Part shown: one piece after another, positions 1-6,645 of the stretch
Layout of the letters: each line of letters begins with the position of its first letter
How positions within the stretch are numbered: the stretch's first letter is position 1
From: Pseudomonas sp. p1(2021b)
GTDB lineage: Bacteria > Pseudomonadota > Gammaproteobacteria > Pseudomonadales > Pseudomonadaceae
Direction of reading: 5' to 3'
Length of the DNA: 64,000 bases
Assembly (NCBI RefSeq): GCF_020151015.1
Contig: NZ_CP083746.1
Span: 4,804,501 to 4,868,500 of the forward strand
Position numbers and translations under genes: made by a program
Notes under the pieces: generated by a model
What the model saw: only the letters and a program-made list of their open reading frames with translations
Databases searched by the model: none
What the model was told of the DNA's origin: nothing

Positions 1-779
1 TACAGCGTGGTGGTCTTGCCGGAGCCGGTAGGGCCGGTGACCAGGAAGATGCCGTGGGGTTTTTCCAGCACGCGCAAGAAGCCCGTGCGCACCGAACCTG
101 CCATGTGCATATGGTCGATATCCAGGCGCACCGCCTGCTTGTCCAGCAGGCGCAGTACCACCCGTTCACCATGGGCCGCCGGCAGGGTCGAGACCCGCAC
201 ATCGACCTCATGACCGGCCAGGCGCAGGCTGATCCGGCCATCCTGGGGCACGCGTTTCTCGGCGATGTCCAGGCGCGCCATGACCTTGATGCGCGAAACC
301 AGCAACGCCGAAAGCGCCCGCGGCGGCGCCAGCACTTCGCGCATCACGCCGTCGATACGCATGCGCACCCGCAGTTGCTGTTCGAAGGTTTCCAGGTGGA
401 TATCCGAGGCCCTGGAGCGGACGGCCTCGCTGAGCAGGGCATTGAGCAGGCGAATGATCGGTGCATCGTCCTGCTGGTCGAGCAGGTCGCAGGTCTGTGG
501 CAGGGCTTCGGCCAGGCGGGACAGGTCGATTTCCTGGTCCAGGCCCTGTACCACCGCCTGCGCCGCGTCCTGGCTGCCGCCATAGCAACTGGCCAGGCGC
601 TCGGCAAAGCTGGCGTCATCCACCTGGCGCAGCGGCCAGGCACTGCCCACCAAGCGGCAGGCCTCGGCCATGGCGGCCAGCGATGCATCCTCGCGCATCA
701 GCAAGGCAGGTTCGTCCGCCTGCTGGTCGAGCAGGATGCCGTGGCGCCGGGCGAAGCTGAACGGCAGGCTGGCAGTCAT
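1..779 (-). CDS. gspE: Type II secretion ATPase GspE, N-terminal part (cut by window edge)
   Basis: Cytoplasmic ATPase that powers the type II secretion pseudopilus. About 259 residues are visible, starting MTASLPFSFARRHG; the gene runs off the left edge. The N1E/N2E-type region is followed by the GspE core (RASDIHLETFEQQLRVRMRI), and the Walker A motif GPTGSGKTTT lies at the very edge. The start codon overlaps the gspD stop in an ATGA arrangement (776-779), so the two genes are translationally coupled. It is the third gene of a C-D-E order. PilB-type ATPases share this fold, but the neighbouring gspC and gspD decide the call. The Walker B and zinc-binding parts lie outside the window. Confidence 0.9.
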   Translation of the reverse strand, partial: MTASLPFSFARRHGILLDQQADEPALLMREDASLAAMAEACRLVGSAWPLRQVDDASFAERLASCYGGSQDAAQAVVQGLDQEIDLSRLAEALPQTCDLLDQQDDAPIIRLLNALLSEAVRSRASDIHLETFEQQLRVRMRIDGVMREVLAPPRALSALLVSRIKVMARLDIAEKRVPQDGRISLRLAGHEVDVRVSTLPAAHGERVVLRLLDKQAVRLDIDHMHMAGSVRTGFLRVLEKPHGIFLVTGPTGSGKTTTL

Positions 780-2617
780 CGACGGCCGCCTTGGTTGTCA
801 GGTAGGCGCTGGGCCTCGAACAGCTTCTGGGCATCCTCAGGCAGCACCGAGTCGTCCACCGCACGAACGTTTTCGTAGGCGCGTCGTCCTGCCTGGACCA
901 GCTCGGCCTGGCTACGCAGGATGGTGGGGCGCAGGAAGACCATCAGGTTGGTCTTTTCCTGGACATCCCGGTTCCAGCGGAACAGGCCACCCACCCAGGG
1001 GATACGGCTGAGCAACGGCACACCACGCTGCTCTTTTCGTACGCTGTCCTTGATCAGGCCACCGATCACGATGATCTCACCATCCGCGGCGAGGATGGTG
1101 CTCTTGAGCGTGCGCTTGTTGGTGATCAGGTCGTTTTCCAGCGTGCTGGGGGCGAGCTCCGAACTTTCCTGTTCGACCTCCAGGCGCAAGGTCCGGCCTT
1201 CGTTGATATGTGGACGCACCTTCAGGCTGATACCGATGTCCTTGCGCTCGACGGTGGTGAACGGGTTGTCCGCGCCACTGCCGGTAGTGGTATAGGAGCC
1301 AGTCTTGAACGGCACGTTCTGGCCGACGAGGATCTGCGCCTCCTGGTTGTCGAGGGTCAGCAGGCTGGGGGTGGACAGCAGGTTGCTGCGGGTATTGCTG
1401 GCCAGGGCCGACACCAGCAGGCCGAAGCGATCCGAGCCGATGGCCACGGCAGCACCCGCCGGGACCGACTTGCCCTCGCCGAGCAGATCGGCCAGCGAAG
1501 CGCCGCTGTCGGGGAAGGTGATGCCCCCCTTCAGGCCGCCCTTGTCGATGCCCCATTGCAGGCCGAGGGCCTCGTTGATGTCACCGCTGACTTCGACGAT
1601 GGCCGCATGGATCAACACCTGGGCCCGCGGTTGGTCCAGTTGTTCGATGATCTGCTCGACACTGCCCAGGGTCTGGGGTTCGCCCAACAGCACCAAGGCG
1701 TTCTGGTTGGCATCGGCCTTGACCATGGCTTCACCGCTGAGCGCCTCGCCCAGGCCGTCGCCGCTCGGCTTGCCATCCAGGCGCTTGCCCACATCGCCCA
1801 GCACCTCGGCCAGTTGCTCGGCATTGCTGTGCTGCAACCGGACCACGCGCCAGTTCTGCGAGGCGGTAGGCGCCGGAACGTCCAGCGAGCGGCTCAACTG
1901 CGCCAGGCGCTGACGCGACTTGACGGGCCCGAGGATGAGCAAGCGGTTGCCTGGCAGGTCGGCCAGCACCCGCACGCCGCTCTCCGGGCCACCGGCGGCC
2001 CCTTCCACCACGGCCAGCACGTCGCTGGCCTGGGCCTTGTGTAGGGTCACCAGTTCATAGTCATGCCGCTGGCCGCTGTCGAGCTGCAGCACCAGGTCTT
2101 CCAGGCGGTCCAGGTTGGCGGCCGAGTCGGTGACTACCAAGGCATTGGCCGAACTGGAGGGGCCGATATAGCCATTGCTGGAGACCAACGGGCGCAGCAG
2201 CCCTGCCAGGTCCGATGCGGTACTGCCGGACAGGGACAGTACGCGTGTCGTGAAGGCGGCCGGAATGGCCTCGACCTGCTGGTTGGCCCAGGCCTTGGCC
2301 TCGCTGGCCGGCAGCACCAGCAGCCGGTCACCGTCGTTCACGGCGGCGAAGCCTTGGGCGTTGAGCACCGAGTAGAACAGCCGACGTATGCCCTCGCGGT
2401 CGAGCGCTTCACTCGACAGCACGGTTATCCGCCCTTGCACGCGTGGGTCGAGGATGATCGTCTGGTCGAGGATCGTGCCCACCTCGCGCACCACGTCACG
2501 AACGTCGGCATCGCTCATCGCCAGTTGCCAGGTAGGCGCCTCGGCCAGCGCCAGCGAGCAGCTCAGGGTCAGGCACGCACCGAACGAAGCGGCGCGAAGG
2601 TATCGCTTGAAAGTCAT
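776..2617 (-). CDS. gspD: Type II secretion secretin GspD
   Basis: Outer-membrane secretin, the exit pore of the type II system. It has 613 residues. A signal peptide (MTFKRYLRAASFGACLTL then SLALA) precedes an N0 domain (TWQLAMSDADVRDVV), N1-N3 repeats, and the secretin core with GQNVPFKTG and the C-terminal PLLSRIPWVGGLFR box. The start at 2617 was chosen over an in-frame extension upstream because the signal peptide begins there and because it overlaps the gspC stop (ATGA). The length is typical of GspD (about 600-700) and too long for the pilus secretin of this genome, which lies separately at 16397. A pilotin-binding S-domain is not obvious after the last secretin strand. Confidence 0.93.
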   Translation of the reverse strand: MTFKRYLRAASFGACLTLSCSLALAEAPTWQLAMSDADVRDVVREVGTILDQTIILDPRVQGRITVLSSEALDREGIRRLFYSVLNAQGFAAVNDGDRLLVLPASEAKAWANQQVEAIPAAFTTRVLSLSGSTASDLAGLLRPLVSSNGYIGPSSSANALVVTDSAANLDRLEDLVLQLDSGQRHDYELVTLHKAQASDVLAVVEGAAGGPESGVRVLADLPGNRLLILGPVKSRQRLAQLSRSLDVPAPTASQNWRVVRLQHSNAEQLAEVLGDVGKRLDGKPSGDGLGEALSGEAMVKADANQNALVLLGEPQTLGSVEQIIEQLDQPRAQVLIHAAIVEVSGDINEALGLQWGIDKGGLKGGITFPDSGASLADLLGEGKSVPAGAAVAIGSDRFGLLVSALASNTRSNLLSTPSLLTLDNQEAQILVGQNVPFKTGSYTTTGSGADNPFTTVERKDIGISLKVRPHINEGRTLRLEVEQESSELAPSTLENDLITNKRTLKSTILAADGEIIVIGGLIKDSVRKEQRGVPLLSRIPWVGGLFRWNRDVQEKTNLMVFLRPTILRSQAELVQAGRRAYENVRAVDDSVLPEDAQKLFEAQRLPDNQGGRR

Positions 2618-3111
2618 GGCACCTCCCGCAGCAGGCGGGGTGAAGATTGGGGAGCCGAAACAGGGCCTATGGCTCTGTCGGAAGGTTGGAAGACAGAGGC
2701 GTTGCCGGGCGAGAGCGACACGACCTCCTCGCGGCCGTTGACCCATAGCACGATGGCACGCACGTCGATGCGCCGCAGTACGCCACCACCCGGCAGACGG
2801 TCGCCGACCCGATAGAGGCCATCGCCGCTGGCGGTCTTCACCAGTGCGCGGGCATCGCCCTGGCTGGAGACGAAGCAGGCCTTGAGGGTGATATCCGCTC
2901 GGCTCGACTGGGGCTGGCCGGGTGCCTGGAAACCGAACGCCAGCGCCAAGGTGGCGACAGGCAACGGTTTCTCCACCGCCGACGCCGGGGCCATGGGCTG
3001 CGCCGGGATGGCCGCACCTGGCAGCATCGGGTTGGCCAGTTCGCGCCAGGTCAGCAGGACACCCATGGCCAGCACCATGGCGACCCAAGGCAGATGCGCG
3101 GAAAGCTTCAT
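2614..3111 (-). CDS. gspC: Type II secretion inner-membrane protein GspC (short form)
   Basis: Inner-membrane component that links the cytoplasmic platform to the secretin. It has 165 residues: one N-terminal membrane anchor (WVAMVLAMGVLLTW, about residues 9-22), a Pro/Ala-rich linker, then a homology-region domain (about residues 65-130) containing LYRVGDRLPGGGVLRRI and IVLWVNGREEVVSL. The C-terminal PDZ or coiled-coil domain of longer GspC proteins is absent. The start MKLSAHLPW was preferred to an in-frame ATG 14 codons upstream, which would lie inside the cytochrome gene. It begins 5 bases after that gene and overlaps gspD by 4 bases, so all appear co-transcribed. PilP-like proteins share the fold; the context favours GspC. 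Confidence 0.82.
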   Translation of the reverse strand: MKLSAHLPWVAMVLAMGVLLTWRELANPMLPGAAIPAQPMAPASAVEKPLPVATLALAFGFQAPGQPQSSRADITLKACFVSSQGDARALVKTASGDGLYRVGDRLPGGGVLRRIDVRAIVLWVNGREEVVSLSPGNASVFQPSDRAIGPVSAPQSSPRLLREVP

Positions 3112-3116
3112 CGGGT

Positions 3117-3635
3117 TCAGGGCAGCATCCGCCGAAGCACGCGCCGCCCGCACAGCTCATGCAGCACCACGGCGGCGATGTGCATCGCCACGCCCAGGGC
3201 AAGCAGCAGGCAGGATGCGATGTGGAAGTTGAACCAGACCCGGTGCCAGAACGGATCGCTCAGTACAGGGGGGACAGCGAACCAGCCGAAGACCTCGATG
3301 TCGCGATCCATCATCAGCACGCCGGACAACAATACGGCGGCAATGGTCCAGTACAGGGCTTCGTGCACGACATGGGCGATACGGCGATTGCGGGGGTCGT
3401 CATGGAGGCTCTTCGGCACAGGCTTGATCACGCGCAGCCACCAACGAACCAGAAAGACCGGGATGAACAGCGTGGTCAGGGCGACATTGAAGAACGCGAC
3501 CCAATGGAAGGTGGGAGCGCCAACATCGAGGTGCGCGACAGCGAAGCCGCTGATCAACACCCAGAGGATGACCACGGCAGAGATCCAGTGCAGGATGATC
3601 TGCTGCCAGCAATACTTTTGTGCTCGCATAGGCAT
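3117..3635 (-). CDS. Cytochrome b561 family membrane protein
   Basis: Predicted di-heme cytochrome b of the bacterial b561/Ni-hydrogenase b-subunit type, an inner-membrane electron carrier that usually exchanges electrons with quinol. It has about 172 residues and four hydrophobic helices. Histidines suited to heme binding include ILHW in helix 1, VVHEALYW in helix 3, and FNFHIA and VAMHIAAVVLHEL in helix 4. The start is uncertain: ATGs occur at 3656, 3635 and 3629. The first overlaps a perfect palindrome (3655-3670), so 3635 was chosen. It lies between the LPMO gene and gspC, transcribed the same way, and ends 5 bases before gspC. A role as electron source for the LPMO is only inferred from position. 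Confidence 0.82.
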   Translation of the reverse strand: MPMRAQKYCWQQIILHWISAVVILWVLISGFAVAHLDVGAPTFHWVAFFNVALTTLFIPVFLVRWWLRVIKPVPKSLHDDPRNRRIAHVVHEALYWTIAAVLLSGVLMMDRDIEVFGWFAVPPVLSDPFWHRVWFNFHIASCLLLALGVAMHIAAVVLHELCGRRVLRRMLP

Positions 3636-3654
3636 TACCGCGACGAAACCGAGC

Positions 3655-3670
3655 ACCCCGTTAACGGGGT
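3655..3670. repeat. Perfect 16-bp palindrome between the LPMO and cytochrome b561 genes
   Basis: ACCCCGTTAACGGGGT is its own reverse complement. It sits 15 bases after the LPMO stop and just before the cytochrome start. It could form a hairpin ending or attenuating LPMO transcription, or be a regulator site. No T-run follows on the minus strand, so a classical terminator is not well supported. Confidence 0.5.
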
Positions 3671-3685
3671 ACCCGGTTCAATCGG

Positions 3686-5155
3686 TTAGAGTTTGTTCCA
3701 GGCATCGGCCCAGTTGCTGCCGAAACCAGGCTCGTAGTGGATAGCGCTAGGGTTGTTGCACCAGCCGCTGTAAGGGAATGGCTTACACTCGAAAACGTCG
3801 CCAGTCTTGGGCTGCAGCACTTTAGTGCCTTCCTGGTAGCTGCCGATCGATTGCGGGTACTCGAAGTCGTACTCGACAGCGCCTGCGGCCTTCAACTGGA
3901 CGCTGTACGTTTCTTGTAGCAACACACGTTTATGTGCGTCCGTACCCACGACTTTGAGCGTATGAGTGCCTTCTTGGCTGGAGGCGTCGAGCACGATGGC
4001 GCCAGCGCCGCCAGTCGCTTTGCCCTCAGCCACACCGACTGGCTTGTTGGATTCATCGAGCAACTGGGCCTTGACCTTCAGCTCATTGACGCTGGTGATG
4101 ACATTGAATTTCAGGCTGGTCTTGCCGTCTTTCAATGTGTACTCCGGCTGCAGACCATTCAACTTCATGTAGTGGTCCTCGCCTGGCGCAGCTTCCAAGG
4201 CGAAGAAGTAATTGGTGATCCCGGTTTCTGGCTTGGCAAAGATGGTATTTACGCCCGGCACGGGCTCAATAGTGCCATCCGCATCGAGTTTGCCGGCACG
4301 CACCAGTGTCTGTGTCTCATTGATACGCTTGGCGAGTTTGTAGGTCCAATTACCTGCCTTACCTTCCTCGGGCGTATCGACGGTGATACCGACACTGTAT
4401 TCCTTATTTTCCGTAGTACCTTGGAATGCCCGCGCGATCATTTTTTCGCCGACTTTCATATCGAAAACAGGTTTGATATCGGCAATGCGGGGCCACTCCG
4501 GCGCTGGACCGCCATCGAGTTGAATATCCACATCCATTACGTTGTGGAAGGCATTGCCGGTGTCGGCAACGGTCCATACGCCGAGGATGATATGGTGCCC
4601 AGAGCGATCGGCAGGCAGGGTGCATTGATGCTTTTCGATAGCAGGTCCGTGGGTTGGGTTACCTTGGCCACGGGCCGGTTTACCATGACCATCCACTTCG
4701 CAGAAAGGCGTGAGCTCGAACGCACTGCGACTCAATGGCGCATTGGGGTTCCACCCGTTCTTGGTAATGAAGTATTCCCACTTCGTCGTTGGGTGACCTG
4801 CGGTGTAGAACCAATCGAACGCGACATTGCGGTCGGTGATTGGCGTCAAATGCCAACGATTGGCGGATTGCTCATCGAGTAGAGCAAAGTCAGGACGCTT
4901 ACCACCACTGGCGATTTTCCCATCAACAGGGCCGCCGGCCGGAAACCCCTTGGCAACTTCACTGACAGACTGGGGCTCGCTTGCCGCTCCGCCACAACCG
5001 GTATTCTTGCCCAGCTGGCAAAGATAGGCACGAGAAGGCGGCTCGGTGGTATGACCATGCGCGTTGGCAACTTGCGCGTGCAGGCCAGCACCAAGGACAG
5101 CCGCGCAAAGGCCGCTCAAGGCGAACCCTTTGTGCATTACATTTCTGGTAGTCAC
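3686..5155 (-). CDS. gbpA: Secreted chitin-binding lytic polysaccharide monooxygenase (AA10, GbpA-like)
   Basis: Copper enzyme that oxidatively cleaves chitin or binds N-acetylglucosamine polymers outside the cell. It has 489 residues. A signal peptide ends ...QVANA, leaving His33 (HGHTTEPPSRAYLC) as the mature N-terminus; His33 and His121 (TAGHPTTKWEYFI) would form the copper histidine brace, with the GNAFHNVMDVDI strand near the site. The AA10 domain (about 33-215) is followed by GbpA-type domain 2 (VFDMKVGEKMIARAF onward), domain 3, and a C-terminal chitin-binding module with aromatic residues (PYSGWCNNPSAIHYEPGFG). Its base composition is visibly lower in GC than its neighbours, suggesting acquisition. 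It is a natural substrate candidate for the adjacent type II system, as P. aeruginosa CbpD is for Xcp. Confidence 0.93.
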   Translation of the reverse strand: MTTRNVMHKGFALSGLCAAVLGAGLHAQVANAHGHTTEPPSRAYLCQLGKNTGCGGAASEPQSVSEVAKGFPAGGPVDGKIASGGKRPDFALLDEQSANRWHLTPITDRNVAFDWFYTAGHPTTKWEYFITKNGWNPNAPLSRSAFELTPFCEVDGHGKPARGQGNPTHGPAIEKHQCTLPADRSGHHIILGVWTVADTGNAFHNVMDVDIQLDGGPAPEWPRIADIKPVFDMKVGEKMIARAFQGTTENKEYSVGITVDTPEEGKAGNWTYKLAKRINETQTLVRAGKLDADGTIEPVPGVNTIFAKPETGITNYFFALEAAPGEDHYMKLNGLQPEYTLKDGKTSLKFNVITSVNELKVKAQLLDESNKPVGVAEGKATGGAGAIVLDASSQEGTHTLKVVGTDAHKRVLLQETYSVQLKAAGAVEYDFEYPQSIGSYQEGTKVLQPKTGDVFECKPFPYSGWCNNPSAIHYEPGFGSNWADAWNKL

Positions 5156-5424
5156 AAGAAAACTCCGAAGAAATTATTAGACGCTAGTGGCCAGCAAGCA
5201 CCCGATAAAATCCGGTGCAAGCGACGATCGCAATCTAACTACGCCATCAGAGTTCTAGATGTAGGAAAGTTCTACAGAACCCGCAAGATTAGTAGGTATA
5301 GCCACGCCCATTGGTTCGAGCAAGTCATCTTTATTAACAAAGACTCTCTTTCCTCGCCAACGCACCCAATAAGCGCAGCAATAGTGAACTCACGAGATCA
5401 ATATAACGTATTGCAACGGAAGTT
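5156..5424. other. AT-rich non-coding region upstream of the LPMO gene
   Basis: About 270 bases lie between the LPMO start and the hemE terminator, much richer in A and T than the rest of the window. It must hold the LPMO promoter on the minus strand. No convincing RNA gene or open frame was found. A plus-strand frame reaching through it is antisense to the LPMO signal peptide and has no family resemblance. Confidence 0.5.
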
Positions 5425-5474: not shown

Positions 5475-6539
5475 TCAGCCGTGATACCGAGCCGACAACT
5501 CATGCACTGCGTTGATGAACACCCCGGCATGCTCCGGGTCTACTTCCGGGGTAATGCCATGCCCCAGGTTGAACACATGGCCGCTGCCATGCCCGTAGCT
5601 TTCGAGAATCCGCGCCACTTCCTGGCGAATGGCCTCGGGCTTGGCGTACAGCACGGTCGGGTCCATGTTGCCTTGCAGCGCGACCTTGTCGCCCACGCGG
5701 CGACGGGCATCGCCGATTTCGCAGGTCCAGTCCAGGCCCAGGGCATCGGCGCCGGCTTCGGCGATGCTTTCCAGCCAGATGCCGCCGTTCTTGGTGAACA
5801 GGATCACCGGCACCTTGCGCCCGTCGTGTTCGCGGATCAGGCCGCTGACGATCTTGCGCATGTAGGCCAGGGAAAACTCCTGGTAGGCCGCTGCCGACAG
5901 GTTGCCGCCCCAGGTGTCGAAGATCTGCACCGCCTGGGCACCGGCCTGGATCTGGCCATTGAGGTAACTGGTGACCGACTGGGCCAGCTTGTCCAGCAAC
6001 AGGTGCATCGCCTGGGGGTTGTCGTAGAGCATGGCCTTGGTCTTGCGGAAGTCCTTGGAGGAACCGCCTTCGACCATGTAGGTGGCCAGTGTCCAGGGGC
6101 TACCGGAGAAGCCGATCAGCGGCACGCGACCGTTGAGCTCGCGGCGAATGGTGCTGACGGCGTCCATCACATAGCCCAGGTCCTTGTGCGGATCGGGGAT
6201 CGGCAGCGCCTCGATGTCGGCCAGGGTACTGACGACCTTCTTGAAACGCGGGCCTTCGCCGGCCTCGAAATACAGGCCCTGGCCCATGGCGTCGGGGATG
6301 GTGAGGATGTCCGAGAAGAGGATCGCCGCGTCCAGCGGGTAGCGGTCCAGCGGCTGCAGGGTGACCTCGCAGGCGAACTGTGGGTTCATGCACAGGCTCA
6401 TGAAGTCACCGGCCTTGGCGCGGCTGGCGCGGTACTCCGGGAGGTAGCGGCCGGCCTGGCGCATCATCCAGACCGGGGTGACGTCTACGGGTTGCTTGAG
6501 CAGTGCACGCAGGAAACGATCGTTCTTCAGGGCAGTCAT
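5475..6539 (-). CDS. hemE: Uroporphyrinogen decarboxylase
   Basis: Decarboxylates the four acetate side chains of uroporphyrinogen III to give coproporphyrinogen III in heme synthesis; a cytosolic dimer without cofactor. It has 354 residues, the usual length. The signature [16 protein letters not shown] lies near the N-terminus, followed by [15 protein letters not shown] and the second signature region ([17 protein letters not shown]). The start MTALKNDRF at 6539 is chosen because homologs begin there; an in-frame ATG five codons upstream is not needed. It is followed by a clear terminator and preceded by a REP pair, so it is probably a single-gene unit. Confidence 0.97.
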
Positions 6540-6645
6540 GTCGGCATCCAGCAAAAAAGTGCGGGCATTTTCTCAGACGCACAGGGAAAAGGCACGGCTG
6601 TTTGTCTATTGAATGCCGTAGATCAAGGTTTTTTGTATACAAAAG

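Follow-up and report, generated by a model that had tools for sequence, protein, structure and literature searches.

Is a membrane cytochrome encoded between a secreted polysaccharide oxidase and a secretion machine there to serve that enzyme, or does it simply keep its company? The question is raised by a block of genes at the start of the window, by which we mean the whole 64,000-nucleotide stretch of Pseudomonas sp. p1(2021b) analysed here (contig NZ_CP083746.1, positions 4,804,501 to 4,868,500). In this block, a gene for a GbpA-like lytic polysaccharide monooxygenase (LPMO) is followed by one for a four-helix cytochrome b561 (b561) and by the genes of a type II secretion system (T2SS). A preliminary description of the sequence had proposed a dedicated module, in which the T2SS may export the LPMO and the cytochrome supply or relay electrons. 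We consider it probable that the block joins an LPMO exporter of the Txc/Yts1 type to a separate, quinone-linked b561 with an altered periplasmic heme, which often travels with the module. Export of the LPMO by the adjoining T2SS is likely by analogy with characterized systems, and a role of b561 as electron supplier, in the form first proposed, is unlikely.

The pairing of LPMO and T2SS recurs across the genus. Among 398 genomes, an LPMO_10 gene is found in 202, a gspD like that of the window (E ≤ 1e-150) in 156, and a b561 like that of the window (E ≤ 1e-25) in 91, at 99 places. Counts of gene neighborhoods, here and below, are made among the matches listed (for gspD, 105 rows that were classified and 45 weaker ones; for the LPMO, 143 rows). 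An LPMO_10 gene lies no more than 12 kb from gspD in 98 of the 105 classified loci, and 60 of these loci also have a b561 (E ≤ 1e-25) upstream of gspD, on the side facing the LPMO; the arrangement is therefore far from chance, with LPMO and T2SS as the conserved core of the module. The search of Pseudomonas genomes for the same order that the preliminary description had called for thus recovers it many times over. One of the 60 loci has a second b561 beyond the T2SS, one further LPMO-linked locus has b561 only there, and the 45 weaker gspD matches have neither LPMO nor b561 within 12 kb. One genome scored as lacking an LPMO among the 105 (G251) turned out to have one cut by a contig end. Many of the fetched loci share a single chromosomal site (gltD-hemE, then the block, then MFS-LysR) and the same gsp gene order, and others, such as L068, L071-L079, L084, and L087, sit elsewhere with no hemE match. 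At family level, 29 of 298 genomes scanned carry an LPMO at E ≤ 1e-40, and 11 of the 29 belong to other genera; nine of these 11 loci adjoin a T2SS, six of the nine with b561, and the remaining two are on short contigs. At class level, a scan of 369 genomes returned the LPMO of the window itself and one other of this type (L089), whose surrounding 19 kb gave no T2SS match and no b561 match.

The LPMO itself has the features expected of a chitin-active enzyme of the GbpA kind. Its LPMO_10 domain spans residues 32-208 behind a signal peptide recognized by eye, and His 32 aligns with mature residue 1 of CBP21, which places it at the mature N-terminus as an LPMO requires. The solved GbpA structure 8gul matches residues 48-488 (E 1.9e-93), including the C-terminal chitin-binding module, so that the full GbpA domain layout of this AA10 protein is present. 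It is the sole LPMO_10 gene of its genome.

Open reading frames and Pfam matches give the minus-strand order hemE, LPMO, b561, gspC, gspD, gspE, bearing out the layout first described, and the tight spacing reported for the gsp genes is also recovered, with 4-base overlaps at gspC/gspD and gspD/gspE and a 5-base gap between b561 and gspC. For b561, the start ATG 3629 is favored over GTG 3656, as it gives a protein of 170 amino acids, like relatives P0005 and P0006; the LPMO-b561 gap is then about 56 bases, holding a strong hairpin. The preliminary description had suggested looking for gspF-M to the left of the window, and there the adjoining DNA (L007) holds a complete gspE-F-G-H-I-J-K-L-M followed by a BOF-fold gene. 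With C, D, E, F, G, H, I, J, K, L, and M all present across the window and L007, the block makes up one full T2SS operon whose first gene encodes its likely cargo. Beyond the BOF gene lie two genes, used as search probes, which we take to encode an MFS transporter and then a LysR regulator. The closest named relative found is P. guariconensis (L018; b561 85% and GspD 96% identical). The complete genome that contains the window has a second type II cluster (L049, G000:C1:4028000-4044000; gspD-E-F-G, 34-54% identical) and a further one with gspE, gspD, and gspG matches (L050). Variants of the block were also seen: four tandem LPMO genes precede the same T2SS, without b561, in L068 (1998-8913), two tandem LPMO genes each stand ahead of the same system in L078, L079, and L087, and in L106 (7747-8727, genome G208), where the LPMO is present, gspE is in two pieces with residues 244-398 missing, so that this copy of the T2SS looks damaged.

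A close parallel is provided by L074, which we take to be the PA7 Txc locus, where LPMO-b561-gspC-D-E stands behind genes for a LuxR-type response regulator and a hybrid kinase, and whose b561 differs in only a few residues from the P. paraeruginosa protein P0031. According to a passage of PMC8623646, Txc of P. paraeruginosa secretes the LPMO CbpE, and a passage of PMC12369383 assigns txc to PSPA7_1407-1417, CbpE to 1419, and the two-component genes to 1420-21, a numbering that leaves PSPA7_1418 for b561. Txc and the window block are alike in that a T2SS adjoins a GbpA-like LPMO, with the order LPMO-b561-gspC in L074; they differ in that PA7 Txc, in the published passages, has the TtsS/TtsR pair upstream and lies on the genomic island RGP69, whereas in the window the LPMO is preceded by hemE and then gltD. 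The Yts1/ChiY group (Yersinia, with relatives in Erwinia, Serratia, and Pseudomonas) likewise combines a T2SS, a GbpA-like protein, and a cytochrome b, according to a passage of PMC3521999 (2012), which places the Yersinia GbpA-like gene at the 3' end of the cluster, unlike here. That passage also describes, for P. aeruginosa and P. putida, a Yts1-like T2SS with a putative cytochrome B561 gene before it and a gene for an N-acetylglucosamine-binding protein on its 5' side, and leaves it unsettled whether the cytochrome marks an insertion site or has a functional role. The b561 of the window stands at the 5' end of the T2SS just as printed for P. putida. The LPMO-b561-T2SS arrangement is thus already in print and not new, and the view that such a gene order was undescribed had to be given up. 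A Pantoea plasmid copy (L134) also has the GbpA-like gene at the 3' end, with no annotated b561 and no b561 match.

On the electron-donor idea, a literature search joining LPMO, cytochrome b561, and type II secretion found no paper, and a search on LPMOs and cytochrome b561 in bacteria listed a single one, on house dust mites. A membrane b561 encoded with an exported protein is known from LcoA/BcnA, for which an antioxidant role is proposed in a passage of PMC9113575; there the partner is a YceI lipocalin, not an LPMO. No YceI family member is among the 16 scanned proteins of the window and L007, in which the neighbors of b561 are the LPMO and gspC.

The residues of b561 set it apart from its best-studied structural relative. 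A phmmer search of solved structures with the single protein gave only weak SEC63 matches (E 0.57 and worse), and a profile search finds the E. coli superoxide oxidase CybB (5oc0), with which b561 shares the four-helix fold and histidines 13, 87, 137, 151, and 158 (CybB numbering). CybB His45 is replaced by Asn in all 73 aligned b561s and in all 120 listed database relatives, which together form what we call the Asn49 subfamily. We take His45 to be the heme ligand in the second transmembrane helix (TM2), paired with His137 on the periplasmic heme. His151 of CybB is named as a ligand in the literature, and the other ligand roles are assigned by us. On that assignment, the periplasmic pair keeps His137 and loses its other half, and the quinone-side histidines 13, 87, 151, and 158 are kept in 73, 73, 73, and 72 of the 73 proteins. 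At the quinone site, R63 is kept in 20 of 73 and nothing aligns at D164. The superoxide antenna of CybB, which includes R30, R35, and K134 (PMC11869295), is largely gone: R30 is kept in 0, R35 in 1, and K134 in 1 of the 73, R38 appears as K or R in 44, and nothing aligns at R108, with an Arg in the next column in 48. Two named proteins without gene context, Yersinia massiliensis P0060 and Serratia P0062, are both of the Asn type.

If b561 were indispensable to the LPMO, it should rarely be missing beside it. No b561 match lies upstream of gspD in 38 of the 98 LPMO-linked loci. In 33 of these, the distance from LPMO to gspD is shorter than in any of the 60 b561-bearing loci; the other five (G116, G292, G071, G272, and G376) have room for the gene, and the two of them that were fetched both hold a divergent b561. 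Among 17 short-gap loci fetched, L055 has a b561 beyond gspM, remnants remain in L063, L098, and L099, and a profile of 29 relatives found no b561 in 13 (L057-L062, L068, L100, L104-L108), nor in L053. The gene is thus missing or decayed in about a third of LPMO operons, and of the 37 genomes in which no b561 match lies within 12 kb of the block, just 3 carry such a gene at another place (E ≤ 1e-25).

Conversely, b561 occurs where the LPMO does not. Of 37 b561 rows away from any classified gspD, 32 were fetched. Thirteen are orphans: b561 sits between hemE and the MFS gene, with neither the LPMO nor the T2SS intact. Nine of these genomes have no LPMO_10 match at all (the other four are G282, G254, G040, and G004). 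At one orphan locus (L088), an intact b561 is surrounded by fragments of gspD and gspM and by what is left of the LPMO, its first 50 and last 50 residues; another (L091) keeps gspG. The other 19 copies (one at a contig edge) sit in unrelated places without a conserved partner, a comparison of the neighbors of solitary b561s gave no partner common to all, and solitary relatives are found on Duffyella and Pantoea plasmids. A restriction of b561 to LPMO loci is ruled out by these copies, and because the gene persists without the LPMO, its partner is not the LPMO alone. The preliminary description had named, as a case that would tell against a dedicated module, the cytochrome next to gspC in genomes without any LPMO; that configuration was not found, but the same chromosomal site carries b561 without LPMO or T2SS at the 13 orphan loci.

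Phylogenies place such changes at several points. On a GspD tree of 41 loci, for which b561-less loci were sought out so that proportions are not those of the genus, b561 presence changes at least 7 times. A b561 tree of 76 rows (39 upstream-operonic, 13 orphan, 2 three-prime, 19 elsewhere, and 3 own paralogues) separates the 73 non-paralogues from the paralogues by a branch (99/99). To explain the orphans on this tree, 10 changes are required (at least 7 by starred branches), and several orphans nest beside operonic or 3' copies. Ratios of nonsynonymous to synonymous substitution rates (dN/dS) are 0.08-0.24 in seven pairs covering 8 of the 13 orphans, 0.16-0.27 in four operonic pairs, and 0.10-0.18 in three solitary pairs.

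Taken together, these observations suggest the following picture. The LPMO would be made with its signal peptide, fold in the periplasm, and be pushed out through GspD, as inferred from its homologues, the GbpA-like chitin LPMO at the operon head presumably being the main cargo of the complete T2SS. The b561 would be a separate inner-membrane cytochrome of the superoxide-oxidase fold that keeps the quinone-side heme and quinone-site histidines; most likely it links the quinone pool by electron transfer to a partner at the periplasmic face, and plausibly it handles oxygen radicals or peroxide, with or without the LPMO. Its spot between the LPMO and gspC would reflect co-inheritance, perhaps with a helpful but non-essential role during LPMO production; one possible side role is removing or supplying oxygen radicals while the copper-loaded LPMO sits in the periplasm. 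The secretion half of the dedicated module first proposed is retained in this picture, on the 98 linked loci and, in the passages cited above, the Txc-CbpE report, and on the presence of another type II cluster elsewhere in the genome (L049); the cytochrome as electron source is not.

Several observations pull the other way. For five fetched LPMOs of the genus (L080-L083 and L085, 33-45% identical), the 18 kb retrieved hold no such T2SS, and one locus (L054, genome G344) has the T2SS without an LPMO at the site or any LPMO_10 match in the genome, so that other cargo is possible. Both the Txc-like and the hemE-site clades of the GspD tree have b561 between LPMO and gspC, and the gene is therefore probably ancestral to the module, and a passage of PMC3521999 has Yersinia Yts1 clusters carrying a cytochrome b too. 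In L055 the b561 sits at the far end of the operon and in L056 at both ends, a placement that seems unlikely to be accidental and suggests some benefit of staying nearby; the two genes of L056 (3677-4171 and 13090-13590), one per end of one operon, are different. In addition, several of the dN/dS values compare an orphan with an operonic or 3' copy, and the pairs cover 8 of the 13 orphans, so that retention of the youngest orphans might be relaxed or due to chance.

How do the other explanations fare against an exporter with a separate, often co-travelling b561? LPMOs require a reductant, and a single reduction can support several turnovers; electrons could pass from quinol through b561 to the LPMO copper in the periplasm before export, as a priming step, or via a diffusible carrier. 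The retained quinone-site histidines and the upstream b561 in 60 of 98 loci, in two deep clades, would fit such a route; yet b561 is confined to the inner membrane and the LPMO does its work extracellularly, no other redox protein is among the scanned operon products, and a cytochrome that is absent or decayed beside many blocks, seldom replaced elsewhere in those genomes, kept after loss of LPMO and T2SS, and found in unrelated places is a poor candidate for a dedicated donor. We therefore regard the electron supply suggested in the preliminary description as improbable. We are equally doubtful of the converse, that b561 merely marks a landing site or is a passenger unlinked to the LPMO, a thought already raised in the 2012 passage (PMC3521999) and consistent with the orphans at the same hemE site, the 19 partnerless copies, and the solitary plasmid relatives. 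The T2SS traces in L088 and L091, together with the nesting of several orphans beside operonic or 3' copies, indicate that some orphans derive from the module and not the reverse, and the module still has its b561 in other genera, at sites where hemE gave no match.

A standard superoxide oxidase, shielding the periplasm from radicals made by the LPMO, would suit the fold, and we rate it lower still: the Asn at the His45 position in every aligned protein and the loss of R30, R35, and K134 lead us to reject a plain enzyme of this type. More speculatively than any of these, the residues could point to a new kind of b561, with a bis-His heme on the quinone side and an open-site periplasmic heme reacting with oxygen or peroxide; with the LPMO, it might act as a quinol-driven source or regulator of superoxide or hydrogen peroxide, or prime copper before export, and alone it might contribute to redox control of the periplasm in general. 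The parts that merit following are the unusual heme site and the pattern of losses. The losses and orphans amount to a natural experiment on the question left in the 2012 passage (PMC3521999), whether b561 is functional or an insertion-site mark, and, together with the Asn that takes the place of a heme ligand in all 73 aligned and 120 listed proteins, they make a simple bench test feasible. Should b561 prove to feed or protect the LPMO, it would represent a route supplying redox power to a secreted monooxygenase.

Table 1. Coordinates of the block and its upstream flank within the window.
Feature	Positions	Strand	Basis or remark
GbpA-like AA10 LPMO	3686..5155	minus	Open reading frame; Pfam LPMO_10 E 8.8e-43, GbpA_2 E 1.6e-15
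GC-rich hairpin, LPMO-b561 gap	3647..3678 (limits approximate)	minus	A few bases 3' of LPMO stop codon
Four-helix cytochrome b561, Asn49 subfamily	3117..3629	minus	Pfam PF01292
gspC	2614..3111	minus	Pfam T2SSC, E 1.5e-7
gspD, secretin	776..2617	minus	Pfam
gspE, cut by window edge	1..779	minus	Pfam T2SSE; continued leftwards in adjoining DNA (L007)
hemE, conserved upstream flank of site	5475..6554	minus	Open reading frame; E. coli match annotated hemE

The hairpin behind the LPMO stop codon (z = -4.1 in the window) is a recurrent element. At LPMO stop codons, 25 of 54 rows have z < -3 (median -2.7; some of the rows are unlinked or tandem copies, and L085 is a partial match), compared with 0 of 40 for gspD and 1 of 40 for gspE, a rough yardstick only, as the control is base shuffles and the gspD and gspE tails continue into the next gene. 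It is seen at most LPMO loci, with b561 present or absent, and also between tandem LPMO copies, with varying sequence and with a T-run in some copies and none in many; a strong hairpin is missing after the LPMO in L084 and L085. Such a structure, perhaps a leaky terminator or a message stabilizer, may end or protect the LPMO message and let cargo outnumber machine, in which case the block would not be one evenly expressed unit. On the 5' side, an alignment of LPMO upstream regions gave nothing conserved beyond one short block, TTCGGAGTT, at about 5165-5180, directly 5' of the LPMO start and identical in the window and four relatives; it is a ribosome-binding site that could double as a site for a regulator.

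A BOF-fold gene lies 3' of the T2SS or of an orphan b561 at several loci (L007 5918-6265, L015-L018, L053, L067, L091, L095, and L098). A similarity search of plasmid DNA with gspC-b561 returned no match. A P. aeruginosa HOU1 record filed as a plasmid (L135) carries xcp together with purF, folC, truA, and fimV, genes that are usually chromosomal.
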